IMG/VR virus record: IMGVR_UViG_3300028840_001905
Coordinates: 1 to 35,379 of that record
Reading direction: 5' to 3' (one strand)
DNA length: 35,379 bases
Source: a virus
Shown here piece after piece: positions 3,292-27,748 of this stretch (position 1 is its first letter; every line of letters begins with the position of its first letter). The notes under the pieces were generated by a model. The model saw only the letters and a list, made by a program, of their open reading frames with translations. It searched no databases and was not told where the DNA came from. Both the position numbers and the translations under genes were made by a program.

Positions 3292-4922
3292 TGAAACTTA
3301 CAGCCAAAGAAATTATTGAAAGGTATAACAGTGCATATTCAATAAAGACGAGCTGGGACACTGAGTATCGAAATGTTTTTGAATATTGCATGCCTTCAAG
3401 AGACGGTTATCAAAAAGCAGTGTCAGCAGAAAAAGTTCTTCCAGACTTTCAAGATCGCAGAGAAAATCTTTATTCCTCAGTAGGCGAACAATCAGCATCA
3501 GACTTTGTAAACACAATGCAAGAAGTATTGTGTCCTCCGCAAGGCGATTGGATTTCTTTAAAGTCCGGGAGCAGGATTAAAACAGACGACGCCAAAAAGC
3601 TTGATGTAGAGCTTGGCAAGATTTCTGATCTTGCGAACGAGCATAAAAACATGTCGACCTTTGACATGGCATTTTCAGAATTTTGTTATGACGTTTTTGC
3701 CGGCACAGGCTGTATGCTTATATTGCCAGGCAAGAATCCGACACAGCCAATATCTTTCCGGGCAATTCCTTTAAGGCAATATTGCATTGAGGAAGGCGCT
3801 TACGGAGAAGTCAGGGCTGTTTATCGAAAGTTCACAATGAAGCGAGAGCTTGTGAAGTATCAGTGGAAAGAACTCAAAAGCATGAAGGTTCTTTCGTCTG
3901 ACGCTTGCAAGGACATGAACCTTATCGAATGTACTTACTACGACTATGATCTTCATATCTTCCATTATCAGGTTATCAATCAGGATGAGGAAATGGAACT
4001 TGTTGCAAGAGAATATAAGACAAATCCTTTTGTGGTTCTACGCTGGAACAAGATGGCCGGCGAGCCTTATGGTCGAGGCGTAGGCCTGACAGCTCTGAAC
4101 GACATAAAGACTTTGAACCTTATTAAGTATTACGGGTTAAGGAACCTGGCTTTTAACACGCCTCCGCTTCTTGTGCAAGAGGACGACATGTTGGATATTG
4201 ACGGGCTTACACTTGAACCCTGGAGCTTGAACGTTGTTCCGGACACCGACTCCTCAATCGTTCCGCTTCAAATAAACACGAACCACAACATCGAGTCATT
4301 TAGGGTTAGAGAACTTACAATGGACATTAAGCGAAACACTTTTGCAAGCACTCTGCCAACAGAGGGCGCAAGGCAGTTGACAGCAACAGAGATAATCACT
4401 CGTAAGAAGGAATTGCAGAGAGCGCTCAACAGTGTTTTCGGAAGGCTCATTTCAGAGTTTCAAATTCCTTTGATAAGAAGGATTTTTGATGTTCTGATAG
4501 ACACTAAGGTTATCAAAGCTCCGAACCCAGAAACAGGAGAGCAAGGGTTTGATGTAGCAAAGATCAATGGTTTCATTTATAAGGTCAACATCATCACCCC
4601 ACTTGGCAGGATCGTAAAACAGGGCGAGGCACAGGCGTTGCTAAACATTGCGGCAACTCTTGTGAACTTTGATCCAAGTGGTCAAGTATTGGCAAACTCA
4701 ACAGACTTACCGGGAATGATTTCAAGGTTCTTAGAGCTTGAAGGATTGCCGGCTAAGTTTATAAAGACTCCGGAGGAGATTAAGACAAATGCAACAGAAG
4801 CGGCAAGGGCGCAGGGACAAGCAGCGCAGGCGGCCGCAGAAGCAGATGTGGCAACAGCAAATGCAAAGGAAATGGGAAAAGCAGGGGCGAAAATAGTCCA
4901 AGAGGAGGCGACCCGTGGCTAA
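3291..4922 (+). CDS. Portal (head-to-tail connector) protein
   Basis: Portal protein, expected as a dodecamer at one capsid vertex through which DNA is packaged and to which the tail attaches. The 543-residue length matches T7-type connectors. Features of that family are visible: an N-terminal region ending in TSWDTEYRNVFEYCMP, a central NPFVVLRWNKMAGEPYGRG segment followed by ALNDIKTLN, and a long C-terminal helix ending in an Ala/Gln-rich tail (about residues 500-530). It overlaps the preceding gene by one base and the next by eight. Context between terminase and capsid supports the call. Confidence 0.92.
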   Translation: MKLTAKEIIERYNSAYSIKTSWDTEYRNVFEYCMPSRDGYQKAVSAEKVLPDFQDRRENLYSSVGEQSASDFVNTMQEVLCPPQGDWISLKSGSRIKTDDAKKLDVELGKISDLANEHKNMSTFDMAFSEFCYDVFAGTGCMLILPGKNPTQPISFRAIPLRQYCIEEGAYGEVRAVYRKFTMKRELVKYQWKELKSMKVLSSDACKDMNLIECTYYDYDLHIFHYQVINQDEEMELVAREYKTNPFVVLRWNKMAGEPYGRGVGLTALNDIKTLNLIKYYGLRNLAFNTPPLLVQEDDMLDIDGLTLEPWSLNVVPDTDSSIVPLQINTNHNIESFRVRELTMDIKRNTFASTLPTEGARQLTATEIITRKKELQRALNSVFGRLISEFQIPLIRRIFDVLIDTKVIKAPNPETGEQGFDVAKINGFIYKVNIITPLGRIVKQGEAQALLNIAATLVNFDPSGQVLANSTDLPGMISRFLELEGLPAKFIKTPEEIKTNATEAARAQGQAAQAAAEADVATANAKEMGKAGAKIVQEEATRG

Positions 4923-5269: not shown

Positions 5270-5605
5270 ATGAGCGACGGAATACCAGAACAGGTAGTTC
5301 TTATCAACGATGTTCAGAGGAGCAACATAAAGAACAGCAACAAACCCTTAGTTTGCCAGTTTATTCAGGATGGGTATAAAAAGCTTCAAGAGGTTGGAGC
5401 GTTCAAAAGCACAGACGAGAAAAACAAAGAGGCTTCAAAGGCAGCGGATAAGCTGAAAAAAGAAGCGGAGAAAGCGGCAAAGAAAGAAGCGAAGGAAAAA
5501 GAAGAAGCAGACAAGAGGGCAAAGAAAGCAAGAGAAGACAGAGAGAAGGCCGCGAAGAAGGCAGCGGAAGACGCGAAGAAAGAGATCGAAGAAAATAAAA
5601 AATAA
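5270..5605 (+). CDS. Ala/Lys/Glu-rich helical protein
   Basis: A 111-residue protein with an ordered N-terminal third (about residues 1-45) and a C-terminal two thirds made almost only of Ala, Lys and Glu, predicted to be one long charged helix. I chose ATG 5270 rather than the in-frame GTG at 5261 because it clears the upstream stop codon. Its place between portal and scaffold suggests a head-assembly or virion-internal role. The helix is low complexity, so similarity searches will be unreliable. Function is not recognised. Confidence 0.6.
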   Translation: MSDGIPEQVVLINDVQRSNIKNSNKPLVCQFIQDGYKKLQEVGAFKSTDEKNKEASKAADKLKKEAEKAAKKEAKEKEEADKRAKKAREDREKAAKKAAEDAKKEIEENKK

Positions 5606-11173: not shown

Positions 11174-13879
11174 GTGCGAACGAAGCAGAAGAAGTATAAA
11201 TTTTCAAAAGGTGAAATAAACCCAAAGCTTCTTGAAAGACAGGATTTACCTGTCTTAGAGTCTTCTGCAAGCTATATCAAAAACCTTCTCTCAACTCCTT
11301 ACGGATCTATCCGGACAAGAGGCGGCACGCAGAACATTGCAAAGGTAGCGACAAACATTACAGCCATTGCAACGCCGACCATAACAAATAACATGGGAGG
11401 AACGGGCGCTAACCTTTACAACCTTACAGCCTTGTTTGAGTCAACGGGAATAGAAAACCTCACAGAGCTTTTCAGGTATGATTTTGGGGGATCAACAACG
11501 ATCTATAAGGTCTACACTGAAAACGTTTATTTTGCTTTTGAACAAGCGACACTGGTTCCTGTTGTTACAAATGGTGTAATAACTTCTGTTCAGGTTTCAA
11601 ACGGAGGCAAAGGTCTTAATAATGTTACGCTTACTGTAACAGACGTTCTTGGCACAGGAGCAACGCTTACCCCTGTTTTAAACAACGAAGGCACAATTAC
11701 ATCTGTTACCGTTGGTGCCGGAGGCTCAAATTATTCCAACCAGACAAGAATAACAGTAAATTACGATGAGCCTACTGACAGCATCAAGCTCCAAGGTAGC
11801 TTAAACGGTAGCTCATGGACAGACCTTGCTACATACACAATAACGAAAACAGCTCAGGATCTTGTAACAACAGTTTCAGCAGATTACAGGTATTTAAGAT
11901 GGCTAAGCACAGGCGCCCCGGCAACTGAGCTGAACATGTATTATTGCCGGGCTTATAGCTCAACTCCGGAAGCGGATACGATCAAGCTTGCTGATTTTGT
12001 TTTTAACCAGGATCAAAAATACGTTCTTGTTTTGAAAGATGAGGAAATTGAGATATATGAAGATGACGTTTTGCTTGATACAGTTACAGCAACGGGCTTG
12101 CTTGACACTTATTTTTCAACACTGAAATTCACACAGGCAGAAGACACGATGGTCTTTACTCATCCGGACATGGAGACAAAGCAGCTTGTGAGGTCTTTTG
12201 CTTCTGAGCCTTATACGAACGATCCGGCAGCCGGGTCAAACATTGTTTTGACAATGGCTGACACTTCTATTTTTACGGTTGGCAATGTTGTTACTGTTTC
12301 ATCGTCAGCAGGTCGAGAGCTTGCAACGATCAATTTGATTGTTCCGAATACGTCTATAAGGGTCGATTCTTTGAGCTTAGATCACACAACGACCGATCCT
12401 TTGGTTACGTCTTCAACAATTATTGATTGGACATGGAGCGCTTTTCCTTTTATAAACATTCCGAAAGATCCTTTTGGAAATGAGTCTACGTCTAACCCGG
12501 CGCAGACATTAACTCCAAGTGCGACAGAAGGTTCAATAAAGCTGACAACAGGTGGCGCGGTTTGGACAGCGGATAGTGTCGGACAGCTTGTTGATGGTGG
12601 TGGCGGCCGTGTAAGGATTACAGAATACGAGTCAACAACTGTTGTTTACGGATATACGATTATTCCTTTCTACACAACGGATCCGATAGCTTCCGGAACA
12701 TGGGATTACATAACCGGATATGAAAATGTATGGTCTTCAACAAGAGGTTGGCCGACAACCTGTCTTTTTTACGAACAAAGGCTTTGGTTTGGAGGATCCA
12801 AGAGCAAGCCAAACACGATCTGGGCTTCAAGGGTTGCTCAGTATAATGACTTTGATAATGTTGGAAATTACAACAACGACGCGATAAACGCAACAATATC
12901 TTCTGAGCAAATAGATCAGATTGTAAACATCTATGCAAACAGGGGAATACAGGTATTTACCGCTGGTGCAGAGTGGATCGTGCCGGAAGGCGCGACAACG
13001 CCAAACCTGTTTTCTGTTACAAAAAATACTTCCAACGGAAGCCTTGACACTGTTTTCCCGGTAGATATTGCAGGAACAACTTTATTCATAGAAAAGAACG
13101 GAAAGAGCTTGCTTGGCTTTGTTTATACAGAGTCTCAAAATGCTTATATAACAAGCTCTTTGAGTTTGCTTACCGACCTTGTGCAAAGTCCTGTTGGAAT
13201 AACGGTCGATTACAATTCCTCACAGGACGTTGGAAACTTTATGTATATGGTCATGGCTGACGGCACAATGGCTGTTTGGTGCGTGGTCTTGGATCAAAAG
13301 ATTGCTTCTCCTGTTCGCTTTGAGTCTGCAAAGGGAGGTCTCGTCAAAGACGTAATAAACGTAGCCGGAGATACATATATCCTGGTAGATCGCAAAGACG
13401 TTATTTACCTAGAAAAGATCTCGGAAGACAAGGTTGACATGGCGACAACTGATAGTTCGTTGTCTGCAAACATTACAGGGTTGAGCGATTACACCGGAGA
13501 CTTTGTAAGGGTTTATAACTCTGCTGACGGTGATTTTGGATTGTTTTATGTAATAAACGGCGAGATAACTCTTGGCAGCACTCCAACAGCGGCAGTTACT
13601 ATCGGCTTTGAATTTGATTATTCTTTAATCAGCAACAAGATTGCGATTTCTGGTCAGACTGACAACATTGAAAAGAGAATTGCGAAGGCGACTGTTGTAA
13701 CAAAAGACACTCCGCAACTGACTTTTGAGAACCAGGAGATTTCGCAAACTGATGACAGGTATGATTTTTACGGAGTAACTGCTTTCAGCAGGGATTGCCG
13801 TTTTAACATAACTGGTTTATCATACGATTACATTGAAATTTTGAGCATTTTGCTCAATATCAATTACGGGGAGAAATAA
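11174..13879 (+). CDS. Tail tubular protein B-like (gp12-type nozzle)
   Basis: A 901-residue beta-rich protein that forms the distal tail nozzle in T7-like phages. The family signature opening is present: FSKGEINPKLLERQDLPVL, then a STPYGSIRTRGGTQ segment (about residues 40-53). Later hallmark segments include WPTTCLFYEQRLWFGGSKSK and NRGIQVFTAGAEWIV. It is longer than T7 gp12 (794 residues) because of an insertion near residues 110-265 with Gly/Thr repeats such as VSNGGKGLNNVTLTV and VGAGGSNY, likely an extra surface domain. Translation starts at GTG 11174 after AGGGGGAG. Confidence 0.88.
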   Translation: MRTKQKKYKFSKGEINPKLLERQDLPVLESSASYIKNLLSTPYGSIRTRGGTQNIAKVATNITAIATPTITNNMGGTGANLYNLTALFESTGIENLTELFRYDFGGSTTIYKVYTENVYFAFEQATLVPVVTNGVITSVQVSNGGKGLNNVTLTVTDVLGTGATLTPVLNNEGTITSVTVGAGGSNYSNQTRITVNYDEPTDSIKLQGSLNGSSWTDLATYTITKTAQDLVTTVSADYRYLRWLSTGAPATELNMYYCRAYSSTPEADTIKLADFVFNQDQKYVLVLKDEEIEIYEDDVLLDTVTATGLLDTYFSTLKFTQAEDTMVFTHPDMETKQLVRSFASEPYTNDPAAGSNIVLTMADTSIFTVGNVVTVSSSAGRELATINLIVPNTSIRVDSLSLDHTTTDPLVTSSTIIDWTWSAFPFINIPKDPFGNESTSNPAQTLTPSATEGSIKLTTGGAVWTADSVGQLVDGGGGRVRITEYESTTVVYGYTIIPFYTTDPIASGTWDYITGYENVWSSTRGWPTTCLFYEQRLWFGGSKSKPNTIWASRVAQYNDFDNVGNYNNDAINATISSEQIDQIVNIYANRGIQVFTAGAEWIVPEGATTPNLFSVTKNTSNGSLDTVFPVDIAGTTLFIEKNGKSLLGFVYTESQNAYITSSLSLLTDLVQSPVGITVDYNSSQDVGNFMYMVMADGTMAVWCVVLDQKIASPVRFESAKGGLVKDVINVAGDTYILVDRKDVIYLEKISEDKVDMATTDSSLSANITGLSDYTGDFVRVYNSADGDFGLFYVINGEITLGSTPTAAVTIGFEFDYSLISNKIAISGQTDNIEKRIAKATVVTKDTPQLTFENQEISQTDDRYDFYGVTAFSRDCRFNITGLSYDYIEILSILLNINYGEK

Positions 13880-16046: not shown

Positions 16047-19000
16047 ATGGCAGAGCCAACAACATTTAAACCAACGTTTGAGCAGTGGTATTCTATACAA
16101 GCTGACACTTACGGATTAAAACAAAATCCAGAAGACGACCCTATGTATGATTGGCGTGCAGCCTATGAAGCTGGCGCGAAAGCTGACCGAGAAGGACAAT
16201 GGCCAAAAGAGTTTGAAACTCGCGTTGAAACAGTTGACTTGCCTACAACGGAAGTAACCAGAAGGGAAGTAACCCCAGAGGCAGCGCCGGAGCCTCCTCC
16301 AAAAGCGCCCCCTACACAGCCGGCAGTTTTTAAAAGAGATCAGCCTTTTGACTTCATGGAGGACAAAGAAAGTCCGCAGTTTGACGTTTTGTCTTACAAG
16401 AAAAGCGAAAGGGAAATTTCTGACATTGTTTATAAATTCAACAGAGGCGTATACGATAACATGACGACTGTTGCTGATCTTGACGCGAATTATTACATTG
16501 ACAAGAACAGCCTGGGCTTTATTGCATTGAAGGAAAACCCTGATCTGTTTGACGCCATAAAAGCAAAGGGGCCTCTTGGCTGGGGCGAGACATGGCAGCG
16601 CATGGATAAGTGGGGAATAGTTCCGTATGCAGGCGACGTGTCTGAGATTATTAGCACTGTCAAAATTTACAATCTGATACAGAAGAACTTACGAGGGGAA
16701 ATTCTCAGTTCAAAAGAGCAAGAAGATTTGAGCGAATTTGCCTGGGACATGATCGAAATGGATATTCGCGGTCAAGCTTGGGACGGAAAGTTCTTGCAAG
16801 GCATTTACCGCATGCCAGCTTTTGTTGGCGAGTTTATGACAACCGGGGCTGTTATGAAGCAGCTTGGCAAGACGGCCGCAATGAAAGGCGCCAAGAAGGT
16901 CATTGCAAAGGGCATGAGGAAATACCTCAGAGGAAGGATTGCAAAAGGTCTTTTCAAGGTAGGCGTTGAAGGAACAGTCAGAACTTTCTTAAACCCTATC
17001 GCATTTCGCAAGCATTATGTTCAGAGAAAGCTTCACGATAGCATTGCAGTTACAGATAGGGGTGAGGTTATTTTTAGAGAGGCCTCACAAAATCCGGCTA
17101 TGACGTTCGTTAAGGCCTTTGGGGATGTCTGGGTAGAGATGGCCTCTGAAACGGCCGGAGCGCACTTATTAACCCCTGTAGGCAAGAGAATTACGAAGCA
17201 GTTGCCAAAAGGCCTAAAAGACGCTTTTTCCAAGTTTGTAAGGAAAGAGACCGGAAAGCCTGTAAAAGGTTTGCGAAGGATGCTCGGATTTGACGGGCTT
17301 GTTGAGGAAATTGGAGAGGAAAGGATCGCAGACTTTTTACGGGTTACGCTTGACCTTGATCCAACGGAAGGATATTCATTCGATCAATACGGGCAGGCAT
17401 TATTCCCAGAATGGGAAGATCTTCTTATCGAAGCTGGGATTATTGCTACGCATGGCACAATGAGCCGATCGGTCGTTTCCCTATACAACAAGGTGAGGGT
17501 AGACAAGAAGATCTCGGATAAGCTCGAACTCGGCCGCATACTTCACGAGATTGACTCATTGAGTGAGAACCAAAGGCAAAGTATCTTGGAAGACGTTGCC
17601 GGTCGAGAGACGGCAGAGGACAAGGGCAAGCTCGCTGAGGCTTTGTCTGCATATAAAACTACAATAACAGAGGCAGGGGTTCCGGAAGCAGAGGCCGATA
17701 AGATGGTGAAGCTCTGGGATGCCTTTACAACTGTGTCAGTGTCAAAGCTCAAAGAAAAGGGCGTTGATACAACTCGTGCGAAATTCATAGCTGAGAGAGC
17801 GCCAATGATAGCTGCTGCCGAAAAAGCAAAAGGGCTGTTTCAGGCCGGGCTTGGCAGGTTTGTTAAGGATTTAGGGTTTATAGAAGAAGAAACTGATACT
17901 CAATATAAAATTGGTGGAGAATGGTATTCAAAAAGAATAATAACAGCAGATAAAATAAGCGAAAAAGCACCTACTCCAAAAGAGTTTAATGACTTCGTGA
18001 TAAGGAAAGCCGTTGAATATTTTGGAGAAACTGATAATTTTTCTGAGACAGGATACATTACAACAGATGGAAAGATGCTTGATTTGTCTGACAAAAGAGA
18101 GGGGGGGCAGCCTGGCACAAGAAGCAAGGATCATAGAGAAATAAATTTTCTTGAAGTTGCTTTTCCTCATGCTGATCCGAATTTAGGAAACTCAACTGAT
18201 ATGGTTGCTTTTATGGATATGGGCAACATAAGATTCAAGCCAGAGTCTAATGGTTTTGAGCTTCATATAAAACCTACAAATCAACAGAAAAAGGTTTTAA
18301 AAAATTACATAAATGAAATGAATGGGAACGTTATTGTTGATCTTTATACAGTTGGGAAAAGAAAAACAAAAGACTCGGTTGAATATCAGACAGGCACAAG
18401 GGCTGAAAAAATATTAAAAGACATAGATGATTTTTATGCTGGCAAGAAGATTAAGAAGTTAAGTGATGTTGCAAAATTTCATACTATGCTGGAAAAGCCA
18501 GCTTTGTATCAGCCAAAAAGAGGAGCTTATGATCCAGCAAAGAATTTGATAACATTGTTGCCAACCGCAGATCGATCTACTTTTTTACATGAATCGGCGC
18601 ATGCTTTCTTTGAATTTTATTTACGAAACATGCCGGAAGACTTGAAGGCTGTTTTCGATTGGGTTGGAATAAAGCAGAAGCCTTTAAACGAATTGACAAA
18701 CGACGAATATCGAAGGCTTCAAGAGTCTTTTGCAAAGGGCTTTGAAGCTTATATCATGGAAGGGAAAGCGCCAAACACAAGGCTTGCTGAAATATTCCAG
18801 ACCTTCTTGGAGTGGCTTCTTGAAATTTACAACAACGTTACAGGCTTGAACATCAGGCTCAGTGATCCTGTCAGACAGCTTTATCAGGACATGCTTGATG
18901 TTGAGGCTGATATTGAGGTTGAGATCGATGCCAGGATAACTCCGGAGCTTAAAGCAAAGGCCTTGACCTTATACCAGGAAGCAAAAGAACAGATCGAGAA

Positions 19001-21980
19001 ATTGAAAAAAAGGCGAAAAGCCATTATCAAGAAATACGGGAAAAAGGCAAAGGCTGATCTTGCAGAAGTAGAGGCCGACATTAAAGAGCTTGAAACCATG
19101 ACCTTTGGAGTAAGGCGCGCTGCAATGGTCAGAGAAGCGGAAGCGGTTTATGATGAACTTCCAATATCAGAAGTAATTGAGGGCAAGATAAGAATATCGC
19201 CAGCGTATGAAGCTATGATGAAGCGCTATGATATTCCGGCAAATGTCAAGACAACAAGCGCGGCCGCAAGAACTGTTGATGAATGGGCTTCTGATCTTGG
19301 TATGACTGAAACAGAAGTTCTTGATAGGGTTGCAGAGGTAAGATCAAAGAGCAACTTTGTAAACGAATACATTGCAAAAGAGATACAGGCAATGAGGGAG
19401 TTTGCGGTTCCGGAGGCAGAGATCAGAAAGAAAATGGACGATACTATTGCGAAGCTTAAAGAAGACGTCAAGAAGGGCGATGTTACTGAGCTTCAAAGAG
19501 AGGTTATCTCTACAATCCGGGACATGAATATTGATAATGCGGACAAGGTAAGGTTCCTCAGCCAGATTCAGAAGGCAAAGACTCCTTATAGCCAGCGCAG
19601 AGTTTTAATGGACATGCTTGAAATGGAACGCAGATATTGGGAAAAACAACAGCGCAATCTCTTGGATGTAAAGATCCAAAAGATGTTGAGGCAGACAAAA
19701 GCAAAGGCCGTTGCCGGGGTTACAAAGGGCAAGTATAACTACGCTGACAATAAATTCTTTACAGAGCTGAGAGACATAAATAAGCTGACTCAAAAAGAAG
19801 CTCTTGAAAAATCGGAAGCTTTTCAAGATATTCCTCCGGACGAGGTTCTTAGCAACGAGGAAGTATTGCTTAGAGCTTTCACAAATTACAAGGCCTATGG
19901 CAAGAGCAAGGGATCCCTGGAATTGTTTGAAGTTGTTTATGCCGGGCTGAACAAGGCTATCGCAGACGCCAAAGAAGCCAAGAACGAAAAGGACTTTCAA
20001 GATAAATTGGAAGCTAGGGAAAAGACAAAATCATTCTTGGAAGGGGTAAGGACAAGAAGATACAAGGGCGACTCTAAGGCCTTAACGACAAAGATATTAA
20101 ACGTCTACCGCGTAGGATCCTTAATGTCCGGCGCGAACATGTGGTCGCTGATAAACTCTATTGCAGGCAAAAAGGTAGCAGATCAGCTTAATTTGGAGCA
20201 TCCGGAATTGACAAGAGATACTGCGATCTTCCAGGATGTCAGGGATACTGTAAGGCAGTCTTTGGAGATATTAGAGCTGGAAAACGACACTGACTTTTTC
20301 AAGTTGTTAGATCAATACAACAGCGAAGAATACACGCTTGTTGAGCAGGATCCCCGATATGAAGAAGAATACATTACAAGGGAATTTTCAAGAATGGGGA
20401 TCATTGATATTTACAACGCCATTAAGAATGAAAAGACAAAGAATGATTATTACAGGGTTTACGGAGAAAACGCAGTAAACGAGCTTCTTGCAGAGCTTAC
20501 AGAAAAGGAAATGGCTTGGGCTGATATGCTCATGGAAAAGGCGCAGGAGAGTTATGAGGAAGTCAATCAGGTGCATATTAAGCAGACAGGCGTTGATCTC
20601 AGACAGGTTGAGAATTATTGGCCGGCAACTTCTGTTAAGCCGCAAGCTCTTGTGAATGATAATCTTGTCAACGAAGTTATCCTGGCTTCTTTCCAAAAGG
20701 AAAGGGTAAAGGGCGCAACAACTCCGATTCCTATGGACGCATGGAGAAAACTCAATAGCCACTTATCCGGAGCGCATCATGTCATTGATGTAATGACTGC
20801 GTGGAGAGATGTAAGGAAGATTATAGACAGCGAGACTGTTAAGAATAAGATTGAAAGAAAATATGGTGAAGGTGTTTACAAGACTTTGGTCTTGCAGACA
20901 AACGCTTTGTCCTTGACAGGGCTTAGAGATCAGTCAAATGTTGTAAGCAGCGTTACAAGGAAGATGTTTAAAAATTGGGTAAAGGCAAAGATCGCGCTTA
21001 ATCCGAGCGTCTTTGTAAAGCAGCTTATATCAGTTGTGAACTATACTGAAAACATTCCTGTCAATTATTGGATGAAGTATTTTGCGGAAGGCATGCTTCA
21101 TCCGGCGAAGACACAGAAATTCATGTTTGAAAATTCTCCGTATCTGGAAGCTCGATACAGCAAAGGTTATTCAGAAGACATTACAAGAGCGCTTTCAGAA
21201 GGCAAAAAGCTAGCAAGGGAAAAATCGATGAATAAGATTTTAACATCGCTTGTAAGAATGGGCGACATCGGAGCTATCGTTTACGGTGGTTACCCGATGA
21301 TAAGGTATTTACAAGAAGTGAAGGGATTGTCCAGGGCAGAGGCGGTAAAGCAGTTTGAGCTTTCTACCGTGAGATCGCAGCAGTCAGGCCTTGCTTCCAG
21401 CTTAGACTTGGCACAGCAGAGCAAAAACCCTTTTGTCAATTTCTTCTTTGCGTTTAAAAACACGCCAAAGCAATACATGAGAAAGATTTCAGATGCGTGG
21501 ATTATGTATTATAATGGAGATATATCAGCCGGAGAGCTGGCGAAGATCCTTACGATCTATATGGTTGTGCAGCCGGCGTTGTTCGGAGCAGTTGCCCAGG
21601 CAATGAGGCACTTGCTCTATGACGATGAGGATGATTATTTAGACGACGTATCAAGCAACATCTTGACGTCTTACACGAACGCTTTCCCGATTATCGGGGA
21701 TGTTGCAAAGTATAACGTCAACAGAATTATTGCTGATATTCAGGGAGATAGGCGCCCCTGGAAGATGTTCAGCCAGCCAATGCTTTCAGATATTGAGCGA
21801 CTGAACGCGAACGTTTATAAGCTAATGGACAAGAACTTTGACGAAATGGATATTTTTGATCTTCTCGGAGTAATGGGAACGCCGATTGAATTAGGAACTG
21901 GATTCCCGATTCAGACCTTAGAGCGTCCTTTCAAAAAGAGGCTTGCGCCTAATAAGAAGATCAAGAGGAGGACGTTATGA
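16047..21980 (+). CDS. Giant internal virion protein with HExxH peptidase-like domain
   Basis: A 1977-residue polyvalent protein, corresponding in place to T7 gp16. In order: a Pro-rich N-terminal linker (about 60-95); a helical region with hydrophobic stretch near 250-275; an AT-rich inserted block (about 611-838) containing GYITTDGKMLDLS and a TRSKDHREI motif; then FLHESAHAF with H848ESAH852, a gluzincin-type zinc site followed by AKGFEAYIMEGKAP, typical of phage HExxH domains. Long coiled coils cover about 950-1300. The C-terminal part (about 1640-1900) has KIALNPSVFVKQL and NPFVNFFFAFKNTPKQYM, as in LPD38-like ends of large virion proteins, plus a likely membrane helix. No lysozyme motif is seen. 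Probable ejection protein acting on the envelope; peptidase activity is inferred. Confidence 0.85.
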   Translation: MAEPTTFKPTFEQWYSIQADTYGLKQNPEDDPMYDWRAAYEAGAKADREGQWPKEFETRVETVDLPTTEVTRREVTPEAAPEPPPKAPPTQPAVFKRDQPFDFMEDKESPQFDVLSYKKSEREISDIVYKFNRGVYDNMTTVADLDANYYIDKNSLGFIALKENPDLFDAIKAKGPLGWGETWQRMDKWGIVPYAGDVSEIISTVKIYNLIQKNLRGEILSSKEQEDLSEFAWDMIEMDIRGQAWDGKFLQGIYRMPAFVGEFMTTGAVMKQLGKTAAMKGAKKVIAKGMRKYLRGRIAKGLFKVGVEGTVRTFLNPIAFRKHYVQRKLHDSIAVTDRGEVIFREASQNPAMTFVKAFGDVWVEMASETAGAHLLTPVGKRITKQLPKGLKDAFSKFVRKETGKPVKGLRRMLGFDGLVEEIGEERIADFLRVTLDLDPTEGYSFDQYGQALFPEWEDLLIEAGIIATHGTMSRSVVSLYNKVRVDKKISDKLELGRILHEIDSLSENQRQSILEDVAGRETAEDKGKLAEALSAYKTTITEAGVPEAEADKMVKLWDAFTTVSVSKLKEKGVDTTRAKFIAERAPMIAAAEKAKGLFQAGLGRFVKDLGFIEEETDTQYKIGGEWYSKRIITADKISEKAPTPKEFNDFVIRKAVEYFGETDNFSETGYITTDGKMLDLSDKREGGQPGTRSKDHREINFLEVAFPHADPNLGNSTDMVAFMDMGNIRFKPESNGFELHIKPTNQQKKVLKNYINEMNGNVIVDLYTVGKRKTKDSVEYQTGTRAEKILKDIDDFYAGKKIKKLSDVAKFHTMLEKPALYQPKRGAYDPAKNLITLLPTADRSTFLHESAHAFFEFYLRNMPEDLKAVFDWVGIKQKPLNELTNDEYRRLQESFAKGFEAYIMEGKAPNTRLAEIFQTFLEWLLEIYNNVTGLNIRLSDPVRQLYQDMLDVEADIEVEIDARITPELKAKALTLYQEAKEQIEKLKKRRKAIIKKYGKKAKADLAEVEADIKELETMTFGVRRAAMVREAEAVYDELPISEVIEGKIRISPAYEAMMKRYDIPANVKTTSAAARTVDEWASDLGMTETEVLDRVAEVRSKSNFVNEYIAKEIQAMREFAVPEAEIRKKMDDTIAKLKEDVKKGDVTELQREVISTIRDMNIDNADKVRFLSQIQKAKTPYSQRRVLMDMLEMERRYWEKQQRNLLDVKIQKMLRQTKAKAVAGVTKGKYNYADNKFFTELRDINKLTQKEALEKSEAFQDIPPDEVLSNEEVLLRAFTNYKAYGKSKGSLELFEVVYAGLNKAIADAKEAKNEKDFQDKLEAREKTKSFLEGVRTRRYKGDSKALTTKILNVYRVGSLMSGANMWSLINSIAGKKVADQLNLEHPELTRDTAIFQDVRDTVRQSLEILELENDTDFFKLLDQYNSEEYTLVEQDPRYEEEYITREFSRMGIIDIYNAIKNEKTKNDYYRVYGENAVNELLAELTEKEMAWADMLMEKAQESYEEVNQVHIKQTGVDLRQVENYWPATSVKPQALVNDNLVNEVILASFQKERVKGATTPIPMDAWRKLNSHLSGAHHVIDVMTAWRDVRKIIDSETVKNKIERKYGEGVYKTLVLQTNALSLTGLRDQSNVVSSVTRKMFKNWVKAKIALNPSVFVKQLISVVNYTENIPVNYWMKYFAEGMLHPAKTQKFMFENSPYLEARYSKGYSEDITRALSEGKKLAREKSMNKILTSLVRMGDIGAIVYGGYPMIRYLQEVKGLSRAEAVKQFELSTVRSQQSGLASSLDLAQQSKNPFVNFFFAFKNTPKQYMRKISDAWIMYYNGDISAGELAKILTIYMVVQPALFGAVAQAMRHLLYDDEDDYLDDVSSNILTSYTNAFPIIGDVAKYNVNRIIADIQGDRRPWKMFSQPMLSDIERLNANVYKLMDKNFDEMDIFDLLGVMGTPIELGTGFPIQTLERPFKKRLAPNKKIKRRTL

Positions 21981-25263: not shown

Positions 25264-25508
25264 TGGAACTATTAAAAGCCATTTACAAGATGTTCTGTAA
25301 GCTGGCCGGATCACGCAAGGCCTTCTGGAACATGATAACAACCTTTGGGAGCTGGGGCTTAATCTTGATGTTTATTCTCGATTGGGTTCCACAGCACAAC
25401 CAGTGGGTTGTTTTCTATATTTACATAGCTGACCAGGTTAGCACGAACATTTATCTTGGCCTGATCGAGTTTGAAAAAATAAAACTGGAGGGCAAAATCG
25501 GAGCATGA
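25263..25508 (+). CDS. Holin-like two-TM membrane protein
   Basis: An 81-residue protein with two hydrophobic segments (about residues 22-41, FWNMITTFGSWGLILMFILD, and 48-62, VVFYIYIADQVSTNI), a basic N-terminus and a charged C-terminus. Both ends would face the cytoplasm if the positive-inside rule holds. Two-helix proteins of this size fit class II or III holins. It follows another membrane protein with one-base overlap and is followed by two more membrane ORFs. Function is inferred from topology and neighbours. Confidence 0.6.
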   Translation: MELLKAIYKMFCKLAGSRKAFWNMITTFGSWGLILMFILDWVPQHNQWVVFYIYIADQVSTNIYLGLIEFEKIKLEGKIGA

Positions 25509-25881: not shown

Positions 25882-25909
25882 TTGACAAGAAAATTGGCAG
25901 GTGTATACT
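25882..25909 (+). promoter_or_regulatory. Sigma70 promoter for the replication block
   Basis: TTGACA at 25882-25887 and TATACT at 25904-25909, with a 16-base spacer. It is followed by CTTTGCAA and by TTATGCAA (25927-25934) near the first gene start. It begins seven bases after the preceding stop. A strong early promoter is likely. Confidence 0.82.
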
Positions 25910-25935
25910 ACTTTGCAAAAGCGAGGTTATGCAAA

Positions 25936-26163
25936 GTGAACAATAAATTTTTAACAGCAAGTTACAAAGGAAAAGACCTACTGGAGGCTTCCGGCGCCCA
26001 CGCAAAAGCATCTCTCCAATTCAAATCTTTAATGGAAGAACTTTCCCAGGAAAAAAATAACTCATCGATTGAAAAGCAGATTTATGAATTTGCTTTTTTC
26101 ATTTATGGCGATGAGAAAAGGTCGAAGTTTTTCATGGAAAAGATTATTGAAGAATTAAAATAA
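25936..26163 (+). CDS. Small early protein (75 aa)
   Basis: A 75-residue protein that is the first gene after an early promoter. The chosen start is GTG 25936, preceded by GAGG; the longer ORF would begin inside the promoter and cannot be transcribed whole. The sequence is helical, with an N-terminal SYKGKDLLEASGAHA element and a charged C-terminus (FFMEKIIEELK). No family is recognised. First early genes of phages are often regulators or host-takeover proteins, but nothing here shows that directly. Confidence 0.6.
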   Translation: MNNKFLTASYKGKDLLEASGAHAKASLQFKSLMEELSQEKNNSSIEKQIYEFAFFIYGDEKRSKFFMEKIIEELK

Positions 26164-26182: not shown

Positions 26183-26971
26183 ATGGCTGGTAAAAGGTTG
26201 ATTCACAAAAACGTTTGCACGAGTAAGAAGATTGCAGCGCTCACTTGGTTTGAAGAAGTCCTCTACTACCGCATTTTAATCAACGCAGACGATCATGGAA
26301 TGTTCTTTTCTACGGCAGGATCAGTGCTTGAAATGTGCTTTCCAATTCGCAAAGCCGCCCGGAAAACAGCGTTTCCTTCAATCAAGTCGACCGAACTTGG
26401 AATAAAAAAGTTGATTTCCGTCGGTTTGATGGAATTTAAAACCATCAATGAAAGGCGAGTTCTTCATGTAAAAGACTGGAATAAATATCAATATTTACGG
26501 TCAGATCGGGCAAAACATTCATTCTTTGGTATGTCAGATGGTATACCAAGTGGTAAACCAATGGTTATACCGGAAGTTAAAGTTAAAGGTAAAGTTAAAG
26601 GTAAAGATAGTAAGGCGGTTGGCAAGCAACCGCCGTTGGTTCACGAGTTCATTAAAGCCTGGGGGGAAACATGGTCAGTAGTGGTTGGGGAGGGCAAGAA
26701 GTATCCATGTAATTTTGGGAAGGAAGGAAAACTTGTTAAAGACCTTTTGAAGGTTTATGAATACGATGATCTCAAAAAGCTCGCAGAAGCCTTTTTTAAA
26801 AGTGATGATGATTTTATCAGGAAGTCGGGATACACAATCGGTGTATTCAGGTCGATGATTCCTAAACTGATCGCTGGCAACAAGAGCCTTACTAAGGCCG
26901 GCAAGACTATTGATGCTGCAAAAGAACATTTACGGAGGATACAAAACAATGACACAAGAAAGCTTCGTTAA
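26183..26971 (+). CDS. Replication initiator protein (DnaD/lambda O-like)
   Basis: A 262-residue protein with an N-terminal winged-helix-like region (about residues 1-112; SKKIAALTWFEEVLYYRILI, DDHGMF, then HVKDWNKYQYLRSD) typical of phage replisome-organiser proteins. A low-complexity linker (about 118-152) follows, and then a C-terminal helical domain (LLKVYEYDDLKKLAEAFF, TIGVFRSMIPKLI). It would bind the origin and recruit the helicase loader encoded next. The linker DNA contains three GGTA-type boxes, a 12-base tandem repeat and a perfect inverted repeat, as the lambda origin does within gene O. GAGG precedes the ATG. No helicase gene is seen, so host DnaB is the probable partner. Confidence 0.75.
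   Translation: MAGKRLIHKNVCTSKKIAALTWFEEVLYYRILINADDHGMFFSTAGSVLEMCFPIRKAARKTAFPSIKSTELGIKKLISVGLMEFKTINERRVLHVKDWNKYQYLRSDRAKHSFFGMSDGIPSGKPMVIPEVKVKGKVKGKDSKAVGKQPPLVHEFIKAWGETWSVVVGEGKKYPCNFGKEGKLVKDLLKVYEYDDLKKLAEAFFKSDDDFIRKSGYTIGVFRSMIPKLIAGNKSLTKAGKTIDAAKEHLRRIQNNDTRKLR
26540..26634. other. Candidate replication origin inside the initiator gene
   Basis: Three related boxes, GGTATACC (26540-26547), GGTAAACC (26552-26559) and GGTTATACC (26563-26571), recur at 11-12 base steps. A tandem repeat follows with unit GTTAAAGGTAAA (26576-26606), then a perfect 8-base inverted repeat GGCGGTTG/CAACCGCC with a 5-base loop (26614-26634). All lie in the linker-coding part of the initiator gene. Origin function is inferred from the lambda O arrangement. 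Confidence 0.55.
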
Positions 26972-27245
26972 GATGTTTGCAAAGCTTTGTGTGGCTTTCA
27001 GTAAAGAATACTCTCCGGAGCAATGCGATATTTACTACGACGAACTCAAACACCTTACAGACAGAGAGGTCAGCTTGTCTATGAGGAAATGTGTTCAGTC
27101 ATGCAGGTTCTTTCCCACCGTAGCAGACATTCTTGATTCTATTCCTAAAAGCATACATGAACCAAAGAAGTTGGAAGCCGGGAATGGAGTTCCAATGCCA
27201 GATCATGTAAAGGAAATGATTAAGACAATAGGGAGGAAGATATGA
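26949..27245 (+). CDS. Helicase-loader-like protein (G39P-type)
   Basis: A 98-residue helical protein overlapping the initiator by 23 bases, with a strong GGAGG before ATG 26949. The pattern YDELKHLTDREVSLSMRKCV (about residues 28-47) followed by RFFPTVADI resembles the N-terminal domain of phage helicase loaders such as SPP1 G39P, which bring the replicative helicase to the initiator-bound origin. No ATPase motif is present. The initiator-loader pair with no helicase gene implies loading of the host helicase. The similarity is by eye and short. Confidence 0.6.
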   Translation: MTQESFVKMFAKLCVAFSKEYSPEQCDIYYDELKHLTDREVSLSMRKCVQSCRFFPTVADILDSIPKSIHEPKKLEAGNGVPMPDHVKEMIKTIGRKI

Positions 27246-27720: not shown

Positions 27721-27748
27721 TTGACAAGCAAGCTGTATGTTATATACT
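27721..27748 (+). promoter_or_regulatory. Sigma70 promoter for the recombination block
   Basis: TTGACA at 27721-27726 and TATACT at 27743-27748, with a 16-base spacer, as in the promoter at 25882. TATGCAA follows at 27751-27757. CTTGACAAG and a downstream TGCAA are shared by the two promoters, so joint regulation is possible. Confidence 0.82.

Follow-up and report, generated by a model that had tools for sequence, protein, structure and literature searches.

Does the linker of this phage's replication initiator gene also carry the origin from which the genome is replicated? The DNA analyzed here (the window, 35,379 bp) comprises an entire virus record; its ends share a direct repeat of 144 bp, which allows a circular reading of about 35.2 kb. 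The initial annotation had placed an origin candidate in the part of the initiator gene that links its DNA-binding and partner domains, and family-wide evidence at the DNA level strongly supports this placement. Judging from sequence, we propose that positions 26526–26634 are the phage's theta-replication origin, embedded in the initiator gene, and we assign this reading, with the mechanism proposed below, a probability of about 0.85. It draws on the anatomy of the element, on a statistical excess that coding does not account for, on homologues that keep layout, place and gene order, and on the match to known origin-bearing genes. The gene and the parts of the element are as follows.

26183–26971, + strand: initiator gene, 262 aa, with a winged-helix N domain (aa 1–111), a disordered linker (aa 112–179) and a helical C part
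26526–26571, no strand assigned: iteron array of one half box and three dyad boxes, recognized by box occurrence and codon shuffling
26526–26532: half box TTGGTAT
26539–26548: dyad box 1, TGGTATACCA
26551–26560: dyad box 2, TGGTAAACCA
26562–26571: dyad box 3, TGGTTATACC
26572–26615, + strand: C-free, weakly paired tract with a 6-bp period, the proposed unwinding element, recognized by its C-free run, stability and lag-6 repeat
26614–26634, no strand assigned: GC-rich perfect 8-bp hairpin with a 5-nt loop, recognized as an inverted repeat and by DNA folding

The domain boundaries of the initiator were taken from an AlphaFold (AF2) model built from 42 aligned sequences, in which pLDDT was about 90 across the N domain (1–111) and below 50 at 112–179, with helices beyond. 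Foldseek matched this model to winged-helix DNA-binding proteins, none with an E-value below 0.001. The ORF showed weak PHROG matches to phrog_5708 and phrog_1408 (replication initiation, E about 1e-5), which are not an O-like family, and no Pfam match, so that an O-family identity was not found; PDB sequence searches with single proteins returned nothing useful. The coding content of the DNA element corresponds to aa 115–151, within the predicted disordered linker.

The three GGTA-type boxes described initially, at steps of 11–12 bases, were located at 26539, 26551 and 26562, with steps of 12 bp and then 11 bp. Each has the dyad-symmetric form TGGT(N2–3)ACC. On the + strand of the whole genome (35,379 bp), the sole TGGT-N2-ACC sites are those at 26539 and 26551, and the sole TGGT-N3-ACC site is the one at 26562, so the search for further boxes on this strand returned no others. 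In synonymous-codon shuffles, which hold the encoded protein constant while the DNA statistic is recomputed, the repeat/dyad count of the box segment was reached in 3 of 1000. The plain lag-11 repeat statistic was not significant in the window (597 of 1000 shuffles reached the same value). Because the boxes differ by an insertion, they are better called dyads than exact 11-bp repeats.

The adjoining tract contains the hexamers GTTAAA, GTTAAA, GGTAAA, GTTAAA and GGTAAA in an unbroken run (26576–26605), within which GTTAAAGGTAAA occurs twice in tandem, confirming the tandem repeat reported for the linker. This tract is both the top lag-6 and the top lag-12 repeat of the entire genome, and the two values were reached in 2/1000 and 3/1000 synonymous-codon shuffles, respectively. 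Its C-free length of 44 nt is the second-longest C-free run of the genome. For weakness of a 40-bp duplex, it lies at the 99.9th percentile genome-wide, a level that similarly weak stretches elsewhere, for example at 25507, also attain. A K/E-rich coding repeat at 5464–5600 is the only stretch of the genome whose generic repeat count exceeds that of the origin candidate.

Downstream of the tract, the perfect 8-base inverted repeat was likewise found, as GGCGGTTG-gcaag-CAACCGCC at 26614–26634. It is the strongest perfect GC-weighted hairpin of the genome (loop 3–10), with a DNA fold of −10.4 kcal/mol (z −4.0). It was reached in 21 of 300 codon shuffles (7%), which is not significant alone. By itself, the 8-bp hairpin is weak evidence; what counts is its location 8 bp past the genome's best tract. 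A stem-loop this stable could also be an RNA element, either a transcription terminator or a translation-control structure. However, a terminator was rejected, as no T-run follows the hairpin and the list from the terminator scan does not include it. Moreover, the hairpin sits mid-gene and goes together with the boxes and the tract, in homologues too, and we consider an RNA role extremely improbable.

Protein and DNA searches found no close relatives in the collections searched, and for this reason conservation could be assessed for the layout only and not for the window's own box sequence. Profile scans yielded 143 distinct initiator genes, including that of the window; most of those found in genome records come from Clostridia. 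The linker of most homologues carries dyad boxes at 10–11-bp steps, followed by a simple tract of 5- or 6-bp units, such as (GAATCC)n. Across about 128 non-redundant homologous initiators, periodicity at 5, 6, 10, 11 and 12 bp was above that of codon shuffles (+1.9 to +4.0, SE about 0.24), and the same test on 361 neighbour genes gave no excess. The best tract begins within 75 aa past the N domain in 126 of the 143 genes, compared with 42 expected. Hairpin strength in the homologues also exceeded codon shuffles on either side of the tract (+2.5 ahead of it, +2.4 behind it); this clear result came from the region-specific test only, the best hairpin per gene giving mixed positions as a family marker. 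Layout, place and gene order are kept in distant homologues.

Among the homologues, AATCC is 12 times as dense in the linker as elsewhere and is found in all three codon phases, with all three occurring together in 74 genes. The 13-mer CCCGTAATCCAAT is read in two frames by different homologues, giving PRNPIQ (35 genes) or PVIQ (13 genes). Since a protein-level cause fails to explain conservation across frames, selection appears to act on the repeat DNA and not on the protein.

Two homologues show multiplied units. The L014 initiator linker (3929–4696) contains the box-plus-tract cassette twice in tandem, which suggests that this element can duplicate as a unit. In the L187 linker, the box unit is present three times in tandem and encodes CNQMISDDIN-type peptides; here, the boxes may multiply as DNA, with the peptide following.

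Furthermore, a blind search of viral contigs was performed using the DNA pattern (GKTAAA)4 only. Of the 56 stretches obtained, about 16 lie within initiator-like ORFs, typically at aa 120–155, and most of these carry box-like dyads directly upstream (e.g. AGGGGCTA...TAGCCCC). PHROG assigns many of these tract-bearing ORFs to replication-initiation families, and four matches also match the N-domain profile of the window's initiator family. The remaining stretches are in short, structural or other ORFs, and a tract by itself would accordingly not make an origin.

These matches also bear on whether the linker is simply a low-complexity protein segment, a flexible KVKGKVKGK spacer grown by slippage that perhaps binds DNA via its lysines and has no role at the DNA level. 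The linker is predicted to be disordered, and some tract matches are unrelated phage proteins that likewise contain KGKGKG stretches, as such a spacer would allow. However, a repeat of this kind is rare when codons are shuffled under a fixed protein, homologues retain the DNA while peptide and frame vary, and the tract is flanked by boxes and a hairpin. We regard a purely protein-level origin of the repeat as unlikely.

The surroundings of the initiator gene add two features.

25882–25909, + strand: promoter-like site TTGACA-16-TATACT, located upstream of the replication genes and in agreement with the consensus at 11 of 12 positions
26949–27245, + strand: G39P-like helicase-loader gene, 98 aa, recognized by family profile and fold; its ATG at 26949 overlaps the 3' end of the initiator gene

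The loader-like gene that had been noted next to the initiator is thus G39P-like. A profile of the loader and its homologues matches PDB 1NO1 (SPP1 G39P) at 4e-6, and PF11417 is matched by 18 of 25 members of the loader family, although the window protein itself has no Pfam match. Foldseek ranked 1NO1 first for the loader model (2.2 Å over 66 residues), with weak E-values. In homologues, a G39P-like gene likewise directly follows the initiator. Lambda P in complex with DnaB came second among the structural matches of the loader model (E 0.2), hinting that a helical fold may be common to the G39P and P loaders. No DnaB-type (G40P-like) helicase gene was found among the scanned ORFs, which lie outside 11174–13879 and 16047–21980.

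The promoter-like site at 25882 would drive transcription across the putative origin. It is immediately followed by an inverted repeat, ACTTTGCAAAA/TTATGCAAAGT (25910–25937), which is a possible operator. A second promoter-like site at 27721–27748 has identical hexamers and spacing (TTGACA-16-TATACT). The dyad boxes, taken alone, would also fit an operator, that is, a site bound by the initiator for autoregulation or as a replication switch and not as a start site; in SPP1, G38P does bind a second site, oriR (PMC6316719). However, the boxes lie 350 bp into the gene, with about 630 bp separating them from the promoter-like site, no second box cluster exists elsewhere in the genome, and the adjoining weak tract would be needless for an operator. 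This makes a regulatory site that is not also the start site quite improbable.

A GC-skew minimum near 26.6 kb, proposed initially as a check, was not observed. G exceeds C across the entire genome; after detrending, the skew reaches its minimum at 14.0 kb and stays flat to about 29 kb. The + strand carries all recognized genes, among them a peptide deformylase gene at 36–464 (PF01327, E 1e-20). As this coding-strand bias dominates, the skew is uninformative and speaks neither for nor against the origin.

From this anatomy, we infer how the initiator would bind, how the strands would open, how the helicase would be loaded and what the hairpin would do. The winged-helix domain of the initiator would bind the dyad boxes, probably in dimeric form and in phase with the helix, and the resulting nucleoprotein complex would open the adjoining 44-nt C-free hexamer tract on supercoiled DNA, perhaps aided by transcription from the promoter-like site at 25882. 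The hairpin may mark or stabilize the distal end of the bubble. Helicase delivery would then fall to the initiator's C-terminal part and the G39P-like loader; the replicative helicase is probably the host's, as none of the scanned ORFs was recognized as a phage helicase gene.

We further favor, with more reserve, a broader interpretation. In a broad and varied class of phage initiators, dipeptide-repeat linkers (ESES, NPNP, KGKG, VKGK) would be by-products of a DNA element, namely a 5/6-bp-periodic, strand-asymmetric unwinding tract located after dyad iterons and before a hairpin, and conserved as DNA whatever the frame. Its periodicity may arise because the initiator or the loader binds single-stranded DNA there, much as with DnaA-trios. 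Origins in initiator genes have been described, and a frame-independent hexamer tract has not, as far as the openly accessible literature searched here shows. If correct, this interpretation would account for the odd dipeptide-repeat linkers of phage initiators as DNA-driven and would provide a rule for locating origins in many uncultured phages by sequence alone: an initiator linker with dyad boxes followed by a hexamer tract. The analysis also yields a testable candidate origin in a phage that is unclassified, and synonymous recoding offers a simple way to probe what the periodic tract contributes to helicase loading.

An origin inside the initiator gene is a known kind of arrangement, and known examples responded to the repeat statistic used here. 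Its maximum falls at aa 102–103 in lambda O and 80alpha gp20 and at aa 112 in the window initiator, and in all three it exceeds every one of 60 codon shuffles; the lambda O record has annotated iterons, and the 80alpha gp20 record an annotated putative origin. In 80alpha, deletion of ORF20 was not complemented in trans, from which the authors infer that ori lies inside the gene (PMC5499656). Like the window's initiator, ORF20 has a linker with dyad boxes, a periodic AT-rich tract and a GC hairpin, whereas its loader, ORF21, is DnaC-like and not G39P-like, and the box and tract sequences differ.

In lambda, the origin opens at an AT-rich region adjoining the iterons in the middle of gene O, with the loader gene next (PMC5043065, PMC7466680). 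The window shares this order of dyad iterons and then an AT-rich tract in the initiator linker. In contrast, the lambda iterons are 18–19 bp long at 20–24-bp steps, its tract has no hexamer period, and no sequence relation between the O protein and the window initiator was detected. The "lambda-like" label given initially therefore stands for the layout (iterons, AT-rich tract, linker position and adjacent loader) and not for the protein families, as the initiator has no O-family match and the loader is nearer to that of SPP1.

SPP1 carries oriL within gene 38, with direct repeats and an AT-rich DUE (PMC6316719). As published, its G38P/G39P/G40P module has the origin inside the gene of the origin-binding protein, with the G39P loader next (PMC6316719). 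The window matches this module in the G39P-family gene directly after the initiator and, by sequence layout, in the repeats and weak tract inside the initiator gene; unlike the window's scanned ORFs, SPP1 also encodes a DnaB-type helicase, G40P. By its loader gene, the closest known system is thus G38P/G39P of SPP1, with lambda an analogy in layout only.
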